The translations under genes and the position numbers were made by a program. Positions 8,165-22,640 of a stretch of 32,419 nucleotides of DNA are shown here, piece by piece (positions within the stretch are counted from its first letter, which is position 1; each line of letters begins with the position of its first letter). Origin of the DNA: Candidatus Moranbacteria bacterium RIFCSPHIGHO2_02_FULL_40_12b. Its GTDB lineage: Bacteria > Patescibacteriota > Minisyncoccia > Moranbacterales > 2-12-FULL-40-10. The DNA is taken from contig MFRX01000001.1 of NCBI GenBank assembly GCA_001784725.1, forward strand, positions 16,701-49,119, given 5' to 3'. Under the pieces are notes generated by a model, which made no database searches, was not told the DNA's origin, and saw only the letters and a list, made by a program, of their open reading frames with translations.

Positions 8165-9214
8165 ATGGAACTCAAAAAGCTTATTTTAGATTTGATTAAT
8201 AAAAAGGACTCGGTGAAATCCGTGGAAATAGTCAAAACTAGCGGTTTTTCGCGCGCCTATGTTAACCGGTTTCTAAAACAACTCCAGGAAGAAGGAGAAA
8301 TCGTTCTCATTGGGAAAGCCAACAAAGCTTCCTATGTCAGGGCTGACAATGAGCAATTAGCTTTGCAAAAGGGAAAGATTTTGTCGGTGCGAAAAAAAAT
8401 CGCCAACAAAGGCGTTTCCGAAGATTTGATTTTAGACGAAATTCAAAAGAATACAGGGATATTTTTAAACTTGCCGGAAAACACAGAACGCATAGTCAGC
8501 TACGCTTTTACGGAAATATTAAATAACGCCATTGAACACTCCCGTTCTGAATTCATCGAAATATTTATGGAAAAGACGGAAGGAAAAATCCGCTTTACCG
8601 TGGTTGATCGCGGAGTTGGAATCTTCCGCAATATTCAAGGCAAAAAAAAGCTTGCCAGCGAATTGGAAGCTATCCAGGATCTTCTGAAGGGTAAACAAAC
8701 CACTCTGCCGGAGCGGCACAGCGGAGAAGGCATATTTTTCACTTCTAAAGTGGCCGATGTTCTGACCATCAAAAGCTTCAGGAAATCATTGGTTTTTAAT
8801 AACATTCTTGGCGATGTTTTTGTCGAGGACTCCAAGGAATTCGCGGGAACAAAAGTGGTATTCGCCGTTTCCGAAAAAAGTGAAAAGGACTTGAAAAAAA
8901 TTTTTGATCAGTATACGAATGAATCCTTTGAATTTTCCAAAACCAAAGTTATTGTCAAACTGCACAAAGCGGGAACGGAATATCTTTCCCGTTCCCAGGC
9001 GCGAAGGATTACGGTCGGATTGGAAAAGTTCAAAACGGTAATTTTGGATTTCAAAGATGTGAAAACCGTCGGACAAGCGTTTGCCGATGAAATTTTCCGC
9101 GTCTGGAAAAATAAAAACCCGGGTATCGAAATTATTCCCGAAAACGCGAATGAGAATGTAATGTTCATGATTTATCGCGCCCAAGGCGGACATTATTCGG
9201 AAACACGAAAATAA
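8165..9214 (+). CDS. HTH - GHKL ATPase - STAS-like (DUF4325) fusion regulator
   Basis: A 349-residue protein with three parts. Residues 1-65 form a winged helix (GFSRAYVNRFLKQLQEEGEI). Residues about 85-240 form a GHKL/HATPase_c domain of anti-sigma-kinase type, with the N-box EILNNAIEHS, the G1 box DRGVGI and the G2-like HSGEGIFF. Residues about 255-340 are a STAS-like DUF4325 domain (LSRSQARRI..VILDFKDVKTVGQAFADEIFRVW). In partner-switching systems the kinase and the STAS antagonist are separate proteins; here they sit on one chain with a DNA-binding head. It is probably a cytoplasmic regulator that may bind the inverted repeats in its own promoter (inferred). The signal and targets are unknown. 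Confidence 0.85.
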   Translation: MELKKLILDLINKKDSVKSVEIVKTSGFSRAYVNRFLKQLQEEGEIVLIGKANKASYVRADNEQLALQKGKILSVRKKIANKGVSEDLILDEIQKNTGIFLNLPENTERIVSYAFTEILNNAIEHSRSEFIEIFMEKTEGKIRFTVVDRGVGIFRNIQGKKKLASELEAIQDLLKGKQTTLPERHSGEGIFFTSKVADVLTIKSFRKSLVFNNILGDVFVEDSKEFAGTKVVFAVSEKSEKDLKKIFDQYTNESFEFSKTKVIVKLHKAGTEYLSRSQARRITVGLEKFKTVILDFKDVKTVGQAFADEIFRVWKNKNPGIEIIPENANENVMFMIYRAQGGHYSETRK

Positions 9215-19572: not shown

Positions 19573-21267
19573 ATGAAAAATATTTATTTCATTGAAGCAA
19601 AATCTCCGGGAGCGCATATTTTCAGCAGGACTCGGATACCGCGACTTGGCGCTATTATGATGGCCACTATTCTAAGAGACAGGGGTTACAATACAAAAGT
19701 TTTTATTGAAGACATTGCAAAAATAGATTGGTCATTACTGGAAGATGCAGATATGATATGTATTTCTTCCATTACATCTACCGCGCCAAGAGCATACGAG
19801 ATTGCAAAGCGTTTCAGCGGAAAAAAAATTCCTGTTGTAATGGGAGGTCCGCACTCAACTTTTATGACTGAGGAAAGTTTGCAACATGCTAATTATGTGG
19901 TAAGAGGTGAAGGAGAAGAAACTATTATTGAACTGGTTAATCTTTTAAGCGGTAATGCAAATATTAATCAGCATGTTGGAATAATAAAAGGGTTGTCCTA
20001 CTGGCATAACGGGAGGATTTATCACAATCCTAACAGAGAACTTATTCCCGATCTTAATATCTATCCCATTCCAGATCTTAATCTGGTTTATCGATGGAAC
20101 AAAACAGTAATTCCAGTTGCAACTTCCAGAGGATGCCCATTTAACTGCAAATTCTGTTCAGTAATTCCGATGTTCGGAAGAAAAATTCGCACCAGAAGTA
20201 CTGGTTTAGTTATTGAGGAACTGAAACAGGTAGAGAAGTATAAACCAAGACATGTTTTTATCATCGATGACAATTTTGCTCCGAAAAAAGAAAGAGCGAG
20301 AGTGAAAGAATTACTGAAAGCGATGATAGAAAACAGCATAAAACTTGAATGGAGCGCTCAAGTCAGGGCTGATGCGGCGGAGGACGAAGAACTGCTGGTG
20401 TTGATGAAGAAAGCCGGATGCTTTGCGGTGTATATAGGATTTGAATCAATAAATCCAGAAACACTTCGGCTTTATAACAAAGGTCAGAGTTTAGACGATA
20501 TTAGAAATGCTATCCATGTCTTCAAAAAGTATTCAATAAATATTCACGGGATGTTCGTGTTGGGTTCGGACACGGATGATATCCAAACGATAAAAAATAC
20601 TGCCCGGCTTGCAAAAGAATTAGAGATTGACTCTGTTCAATTTATGATGTTAACGCCGCTTCCCGGAACACCTCTTTTTGGAGAACTAAAAGACCAGGGA
20701 CGACTACTTCATACCGATTGGAGCAAATATGACGCTCACCATGCGGTATTTGATCCATGTAATATGTCGGCACTTGAGCTTCATATCTATACACTAAAAG
20801 CTATGAAAAAATTCTATTCCTGGTGGGAAATATTAAGGAAACTCGTGAAGATAAAATGGTATCATGTTATGGTAAAATGGTACGGAAATAGATCTGTCTC
20901 CAAAGCCCTGAGAAAGAAAAAAAAATATCTAAGCTTGCTTTCTGATATTATAGATGGTTCAGTTAAGAAATTTCCGCGGGAGAAAGTGAAAGGGATTGCC
21001 GTAGTTACTGAAGGCCATGAGGCAGACAATTATGGAAGAAATTTTTTCAAGATTTTTCTGGAAGATCTTGGGATAGAAGATCCACAAATTGAAATGGTGC
21101 AAGAAGGAAGTTTACCTATTAGGGGATTTTCATTGAACCAACTTTGCCGAAAAATCGGCAACAGTTTGGGTGCAAAAGACAAAAAAATAAGGAGGGCATT
21201 CGAAATTGCCAGGGGCGTTCTAAATGGTGTGGATTTAGAGTGCACTAAGGCGAAGTTTATTATGTAG
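19573..21267 (+). CDS. B12-binding-domain radical SAM protein
   Basis: A 564-residue protein. Residues about 1-135 form a cobalamin-binding-type Rossmann domain (PRLGAIMMATILRDRGY, MGGPHSTF, VRGEGEETI). The usual DxHxxG histidine ligand is not visible. The radical SAM core spans about 178-400, with CxxxCxxC cysteines at 188, 192 and 195 (CPFNCKFC), the GFES motif and a GMFVLGSD strand. The last ~130 residues form an extra domain without a motif I know. Architecture resembles BchE/HpnJ-type methyltransferases or cyclases; the substrate cannot be told. Upstream lies a 130-nt A-rich leader with a GAGAGG ribosome-binding site. A terminator follows. Confidence 0.9.
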   Translation: MKNIYFIEAKSPGAHIFSRTRIPRLGAIMMATILRDRGYNTKVFIEDIAKIDWSLLEDADMICISSITSTAPRAYEIAKRFSGKKIPVVMGGPHSTFMTEESLQHANYVVRGEGEETIIELVNLLSGNANINQHVGIIKGLSYWHNGRIYHNPNRELIPDLNIYPIPDLNLVYRWNKTVIPVATSRGCPFNCKFCSVIPMFGRKIRTRSTGLVIEELKQVEKYKPRHVFIIDDNFAPKKERARVKELLKAMIENSIKLEWSAQVRADAAEDEELLVLMKKAGCFAVYIGFESINPETLRLYNKGQSLDDIRNAIHVFKKYSINIHGMFVLGSDTDDIQTIKNTARLAKELEIDSVQFMMLTPLPGTPLFGELKDQGRLLHTDWSKYDAHHAVFDPCNMSALELHIYTLKAMKKFYSWWEILRKLVKIKWYHVMVKWYGNRSVSKALRKKKKYLSLLSDIIDGSVKKFPREKVKGIAVVTEGHEADNYGRNFFKIFLEDLGIEDPQIEMVQEGSLPIRGFSLNQLCRKIGNSLGAKDKKIRRAFEIARGVLNGVDLECTKAKFIM

Positions 21268-21652: not shown

Positions 21653-21730
21653 CAATAAAAAATTTAGCGTGATAATTTTTAAAAGCAGCTGGTTTGAGTA
21701 ATTAAAAAATTTTGAATTTAAAATGAAAGA

Positions 21731-21756
21731 GGCCTCTGATAATTGATCAGGGCCCC
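21731..21756 (-). terminator. probable terminator of the LuxI-like gene
   Basis: On the minus strand, GGCCCTGAT pairs with ATCAGAGGCC around CAATT, followed by TCTTTCATTTT. Confidence 0.55.
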
Positions 21757-21785
21757 GTAGTTTAGATTAATGTTAAGAAACTCTC
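21750..21785 (+). pseudogene. 5' tRNA fragment at the LuxI-like gene end
   Basis: GGGCCCCGTAGTTTAGA has a tRNA-type acceptor, TA and D-arm. It stops in a degenerate D-arm that overlaps the 3' end of the minus-strand gene. There is no anticodon arm or T-arm. Confidence 0.4.
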
Positions 21786-22358
21786 ATTTTTTGCCAAGTG
21801 CGGCACCTGGCTGATGTGCGTCATCATTGGAACCAGCCGCAGATTTGCAGATTTTTTGTGAGTCAATTCCTCTCCCAATTCTATGAAAACATCCATTTTT
21901 TCCCGTTTCACTATGCGGGCAATTCCTCTTCTTGCCAATGCGTAGATATATTCATATCCCCGATCAACTGCGTACTGGTAAATAAGAGCATACAACATGC
22001 ATTTGACCGCGGGATCTTTGGAAATTATCCGAGAAATTTCAAGAGAATGCGGTTGTATTTTTCCAATCGCTTTAGCTGCAGGAAGCTCTATTTTATCATC
22101 AGTTATCAATCGACATCCGGTTATTATTTTTCTTCTTTCGCAGTTTTCTCCCGAGATACAAACAATATAATCCGCGTACTGATCAATTAAATCCCTTTCT
22201 ATTTTTTCTTCATTCTCCGGTTCCCATCTGCGGTTATGTTTAATAACAAATTCGTAATATCGCAGACGTTGGAACTCTTTGCGGAGTGGTTCGTCATGAG
22301 TCGTAGGTTCTAAAAGAAGAAATATCCTTCCCGTAATGTCTTCCATCAGTTTTTGCAT
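21762..22358 (-). CDS. LuxI-type autoinducer synthase-like acyltransferase
   Basis: A 198-residue protein with the acyl-homoserine-lactone synthase/GNAT-like layout. Residues matching the LuxI signature are visible in order: R33 and F37 (R-x3-F), W45, D59/D63, R83 in GCRLI, and E107/R110 in LEISR. A helix (KCMLYALIYQYAVDRGYEYIYALA) and RIVKREKMD follow, as in the family. LuxI enzymes make acyl-homoserine lactones from SAM and acyl-ACP; relatives such as FeeM and exosortase-associated enzymes make other N-acyl amino acids, so the product here is unknown. AAAGGAGG precedes the ATG and can be hidden in an RNA hairpin (see leader). No LuxR-type receptor is in the window. Fold confidence is good; exact activity is open. 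Confidence 0.72.
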   Translation of the reverse strand: MQKLMEDITGRIFLLLEPTTHDEPLRKEFQRLRYYEFVIKHNRRWEPENEEKIERDLIDQYADYIVCISGENCERRKIITGCRLITDDKIELPAAKAIGKIQPHSLEISRIISKDPAVKCMLYALIYQYAVDRGYEYIYALARRGIARIVKREKMDVFIELGEELTHKKSANLRLVPMMTHISQVPHLAKNESFLTLI

Positions 22359-22360
22359 CT

Positions 22361-22431
22361 TTTACCTCCTTTGCATTTTGAGGGGGATACCCCCTTTTTT
22401 AGCGCAACGCAAAGGGAGGTAAATCCCCTTT
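22361..22431 (-). promoter_or_regulatory. switch-like leader hiding the ribosome-binding site of the LuxI-like gene
   Basis: In the RNA, GCAAAGGAGGUAAA (containing the ribosome-binding site) can pair with UUUACCUCCCUUUGC upstream: 14 bp with one bulged C. Inside the loop is a GGGGG-UAU-CCCCC hairpin. The upstream strand can instead form AAAGGG..CCCUUU on its own, which would free the ribosome-binding site. The two folds exclude each other. Confidence 0.65.
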
Positions 22432-22488
22432 ATTTGGTTAAATTTTAGTTAAATTATTGTTTTTTTAAAGATCTTTCTTGGACATTAA

Positions 22489-22518
22489 ATTGTATTCCTA
22501 AAATGCTAATCTTGTCAA
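22489..22518 (-). promoter_or_regulatory. promoter of the LuxI-like gene
   Basis: On the minus strand: TTGACA, 18-bp spacer, TACAAT. The leader would be about 125 nt. An imperfect inverted repeat (CCTAAAATGC..GCATTAGG) surrounds the -35. Confidence 0.7.
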
Positions 22519-22585: not shown

Positions 22586-22640
22586 GCCCCCGTAGTTCAG
22601 TGATATAATTAGAAACTACCTTTTTCTTGTTAGGTGTGCT
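22586..22640 (+). pseudogene. broken tRNA beside the LAGLIDADG-like gene
   Basis: GCCCCCGTAGTTCAG is a tRNA-type acceptor plus D-arm, followed by a degenerate anticodon-arm-like ACCTTTTTCTTGTTAGGT. No T-arm or pairing 3' acceptor (CGGGGGC) follows; instead the promoter of the 22674 gene begins. Confidence 0.45.

Follow-up and report, generated by a model that had tools for sequence, protein, structure and literature searches.

Profile comparisons place P0001, the product of a solitary gene in a CPR-like genome, as a real but very diverged member of the LuxI/N-acyl-amino-acid-synthase acyltransferase superfamily. Its clade is small, has been seen so far in one order only and has no linked receptor. 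The initial annotation had named the gene a LuxI-type synthase, a label that is too specific, although the family call is right at the superfamily level. Our leading reading, which we hold with a probability of roughly 0.6, is that P0001 is a single-domain GNAT-fold acyltransferase that uses a thioester donor, scavenged at least in part, to N-acylate an amino acid or a similar amine.

The gene, its flanks and its leader RNA

The ORF at 21762..22358 on the minus strand is a real gene. Within the window, which is the whole stretch of 32,419 nucleotides that was analysed, the gene and its surroundings comprise the following features.

21762..22358, minus strand: orphan LuxI/NAS-superfamily acyltransferase gene encoding P0001 (198 aa, ATG start)
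22361..22423, minus strand: predicted leader hairpin (z about -2.6); the 3' arm (22361-22377) holds the Shine-Dalgarno sequence and the 5' arm (22406-22423) its near-exact complement
22381-22395, minus strand: GC-rich hairpin nested inside the leader hairpin
22489..22518, minus strand: promoter-like TTGACA-18-TACAAT upstream of the gene (11/12 sigma-70-like consensus matches; a consensus match only)
21729..21756, minus strand: strong hairpin just past the stop codon (z -4.1), terminator-like but poor in U-tract
19573-21267, plus strand: B12-binding radical SAM gene, flanking the P0001 gene on one side
Same flank, plus strand: two tRNA-Ala genes
Opposite flank, plus strand: unnamed HTH protein, tRNA-Arg and CCA nucleotidyltransferase

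Read on the minus strand, the gene is preceded by a strong ribosome-binding site (AAGGAGGTAAAAG-ATG). It stands alone, its neighbours on both sides being encoded on the plus strand, and the hairpin past its stop codon received no call in the terminator scan. Its GC content (0.394) is typical of the contig (mean 0.388) and thus gives no sign of recent horizontal gain. In line with the initial annotation, which had noted no LuxR receptor nearby, the window proteins that were scanned contained no LuxR-like match, a difference from LuxI N-acyl homoserine lactone (AHL) synthases. A 38-nt direct repeat with 71% identity flanks the gene on both sides (21753-21790 and 22588-22625, 835 nt apart); it starts with CCCCGTAGTT and is similar to the first part of a tRNA gene. 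Elsewhere in the window, positions 8165-9214 (plus strand) encode an unusual fusion of a winged-helix-like start, HATPase_c_2 and a STAS-like DUF4325 domain.

The leader (22359-22482), from the predicted transcription start to the ATG, spans about 124 nt. In its predicted fold, ATTTACCTCC-CTTTGCGT is paired with ATGCAAAGGAGGTAAA, which would hide the ribosome-binding site. On the 99-kb contig, 17 genes have a recognised ribosome-binding site, and that of P0001 is the most occluded, with two other genes close behind. This predicted hairpin hints at translational control; the leader could be a riboswitch, a thermosensor or a protein-controlled element, or could carry no regulation at all.

Profile matches and catalytic residues

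Searched alone against Pfam, P0001 scored 15.5 bits with Autoind_synth (PF00765) and 18.6 bits with Acetyltransf_5, both below threshold (24 bits, the curated LuxI cut-off, and 22.4 bits, respectively). The comparison with the Autoind_synth profile that was suggested at the outset as a check gives a match, but one that does not reach the family cut-off. The best NCBIfam match, exosort_acyl (TIGR03694), reached 18.3 bits, far under its cut-off of 111.95. The single sequence returned nothing from the PDB and no FeeM match, and its single-sequence AlphaFold model had a pLDDT of 37.9.

A narrow profile of P0001 and its three nearest relatives (L002, L003 and L014) matched LasI (1e-8), 5w8c (5e-7) and EsaI (1e-6) in the PDB. 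Seven LuxI-type synthases (1e-8 to 9e-4) were its only matches below E 0.1, and the next was a designed protein at E 0.19. When the P0001 group was aligned to four annotated plasmid LuxI proteins with hhalign, the result was a probability of 97.2% (3.9e-11), compared with 0.1% for P0001 alone, so the LuxI signal comes from the group. With a broad profile of 20 CPR relatives, E values ran from 3e-20 to 4e-12 for LuxI-type enzymes, while FeeM reached only 0.17; the GNAT acetyltransferase SACOL1063 was also matched weakly. At E <= 0.01, 18 of these 20 relatives matched exosort_acyl, 16 Acetyltransf_5, 14 Autoind_synth and 14 FeeM. P0001 would share its superfamily with the N-acyl amino acid synthase FeeM (PF21926, 2G0B); relative L004 passes both the Acetyltransf_5 and FeeM cut-offs. 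The LuxI-type matches to known structures and the hhalign result indicate that P0001 is a distant member of the superfamily.

Direct reading of P0001 finds R33-x3-F37, W45, E54-x-D56-x2-D59, G81-C-R83-L-I and E107-I-S-R110, which bears out the earlier statement that the LuxI-type positions occur in order and at near-correct spacing. Aligned to annotated plasmid LuxI, the set falls onto R25, F29, W35, E44, D46, D49, R70, E101, S103 and R104, with motif spacing shifted by 2 to 7 residues. P0001 thus carries the full conserved R, F, W, E, D, D, R, E, S, R set of LuxI (PF00765), and eight of these positions (R33, E54, D56, D59, R83, E107, S109 and R110) are invariant in the P0001 group and true LuxI. 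Shuffling the protein 200,000 times never produced the ordered pattern, and among 190,506 translated residues of CPR DNA it occurred only in members of the P0001 family; it is therefore not a product of chance.

With LuxI AHL synthases (PF00765; LasI, 1RO5; EsaI, 1KZF), P0001 has in common the N-terminal catalytic residues, in both kind and sequence, and the single-domain size, and they are its best PDB profile matches. It differs from them in lacking the F-P motif (F84-P85). The acyl pocket of LuxI lies in the C-terminal third, and this third of P0001 aligns poorly with LuxI. Inspection by eye shows that P0001, like LuxI, lacks after the EISR strand the glycine-rich Q/R-x-x-G-x-G/A loop with which ordinary GNATs bind acetyl-CoA. 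The E-x-D-x-x-D, R, E-x-S-R core is also common to PEP-CTERM/exosortase N-acyl amino acid synthases (TIGR03694, related to PF13444), although no exosortase genes were seen in the window. Because the catalytic set is found in N-acyl amino acid synthases and exosortase-associated acyltransferases as well, it does not single out AHL synthesis.

Solo and kinase-linked relatives

Within the order, P0001 has the relatives L002 (34% identity, 3.5e-12), L003 (2e-7) and L004 (9e-5), with L014 as a second copy in the L003 genome; 4/131 genomes of the order contain a match to the gene. Genome contigs and viral contigs searched with P0001 or the P0001+L002 alignment gave no close relatives; there were none in phages and plasmids searched with P0001, and none in viral contigs searched with L015, L003 and L004 as seeds. 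A further candidate, L020, was set aside because its sequence reads like that of a glycosyltransferase. One genome (G084:C1) contains two diverged solo copies, L045 and L046, about 18 kb apart; one adjoins ribosomal protein L9 and CTP synthase, and the other lies near an alanyl-tRNA synthetase-like gene.

In an unrooted tree of 24 proteins with a long P0001 branch, the five solo CPR genes form one clade (98/97) and five plasmid LuxI-type proteins form a separate group (100/98). Kinase-linked CPR proteins fall in between, with L007 and L015 joining LuxI at 86/83. In this tree, given its unrooted form and long branches, P0001 does not group with known AHL synthases. A model of the four other orphans, built with P0001 left out, gave P0001 89.6 bits; a model of the kinase-linked CPR proteins gave it 56.7 bits, with true LuxI proteins scoring similarly (41-62 bits), and a LuxI-only model gave 2.6 bits. 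P0001 thus falls outside LuxI proper on two counts, the Pfam cut-off and the tree, so that of the original LuxI-type assignment the superfamily homology stands and the strict sense does not. P0001 shares ancestral stock with LuxI and N-acyl amino acid synthases, and it probably works like them.

In other CPR families, relatives belong to a recurring cassette (L032-L044, L049 and L050, the regions around relatives) that combines the acyltransferase with a histidine kinase bearing an N-terminal 7TM region and with response regulators, often adding a ThiF-type or SAM-methyltransferase gene. PF16927 was confirmed for the L032 and L037 kinases, and the remaining cassette members were recognised by eye. 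A relative lies beside this kinase class in at least 13 CPR loci; the acyltransferase is fused to a methyltransferase in L009/L042 and to ThiF in L018/L035. Among the five orphans, none has a kinase cassette neighbourhood (regions of four, and the window for P0001). A survey in mSystems in 2020 had already listed 36 CPR LuxI homologues with conserved catalytic residues, 18 of them adjacent to a sensory kinase (PMC7567580). Like P0001, these are of LuxI type and conserve catalytic residues, whereas the P0001 clade is solo, which suggests that CPR LuxI-type genes are of at least two kinds, kinase-linked and solo. The presence of such a gene in CPR is less novel because of that survey.

Substrate supply and proposed function

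The genome (0.94 Mb, 94% complete) yielded no match to the acyl carrier protein (ACP) family, to ketoacyl synthase or to the bacterial and archaeal families of SAM synthetase, searches that were positive in most or all suitable control genomes. An enzyme supplying a long acyl thioester was likewise not found in the genome. The initial annotation had called the acyl donor a puzzle, and these missing functions sharpen it. The radical SAM gene beside P0001 implies some source of SAM for the cell to draw on. Contig C9 carries pyruvate-type ferredoxin oxidoreductase genes that could be a source of acetyl-CoA or another short acyl-CoA; long-chain acyl donors would need to come from scavenging. Both the small size of the genome and the pathways that it lacks fit a CPR bacterium, which is probably host-dependent.

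In the proposed mechanism, P0001 would have the GNAT fold of its superfamily, whose members include LuxI AHL synthases, N-acyl amino acid synthases of the FeeM type and exosortase-associated acyltransferases, and would take an acyl group from a phosphopantetheine thioester, either acyl-CoA or acyl-ACP from another cell. By analogy, a small amine would then accept this group on its amino nitrogen, an amino acid being a likelier acceptor than SAM. At least part of its substrates would be scavenged, and the clade would work without a linked receptor. Expression of exosortase-associated Acetyltransf_5 members in E. coli leads to N-acyl amino acids (PMC9762135).

A true AHL synthase would instead couple the acyl group to SAM, lactonise the product and release methylthioadenosine, giving a signal to other cells or the host. 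The ten LuxI positions are all kept in P0001, F37 and W45 among them (some relatives have lost W45), its PDB profile matches are AHL synthases, and its residues 143-154 form a basic stretch (RRGIARIVKREK) near the position of the LasI ACP-binding helix (residues 146-173; PMC4234381). We nevertheless regard this reading as unlikely, given a clade apart from LuxI, the low LuxI-only score, a genome in which neither SAM synthetase nor ACP was found, and the missing F84-P85. GNATs are common, and an ordinary acetyl-CoA GNAT acting on a small molecule or protein, with LuxI-like residues retained by descent, would be served by the acetyl-CoA that the oxidoreductases could give and would agree with the weak SACOL1063 match; yet the narrow profile finds LuxI-type enzymes rather than general GNATs and the canonical acetyl-CoA loop is not visible, which makes this alternative quite improbable.

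Compatible with the N-acyltransferase reading that we favour is a scheme in which the only 7TM histidine kinase of the genome, on contig C9 and unlinked to the gene, senses what P0001 makes. This kinase is homologous along its length to the cassette kinases (26%, 7e-44), the class that relatives adjoin elsewhere in CPR. However, such a kinase occurs in 53% of 124 genomes of the order, compared with the few that match the P0001 gene, so its presence says little, and the orphan clade never adjoins one; we consider such a pairing very unlikely. A fuller version of the favoured reading is similarly doubtful: that this order-specific solo clade builds an acylated amine wholly from scavenged blocks (an acyl thioester, plus SAM in the case of an AHL-like product) to serve as signal or effector towards the host or neighbours, with a leader RNA switch gating translation.

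To the CPR homologues already listed, this analysis adds a solo clade known so far from one order only, a genome in which ACP, ketoacyl synthase and SAM synthetase were not detected, and what may be a switch in the leader RNA. If P0001 is active, a reduced, probably host-dependent bacterium would be making an N-acyl compound without fatty-acid or SAM synthesis of its own, and the exchange between CPR bacterium and host, what is taken and what is sent back, could be tested directly by mass spectrometry with a single recombinant protein.
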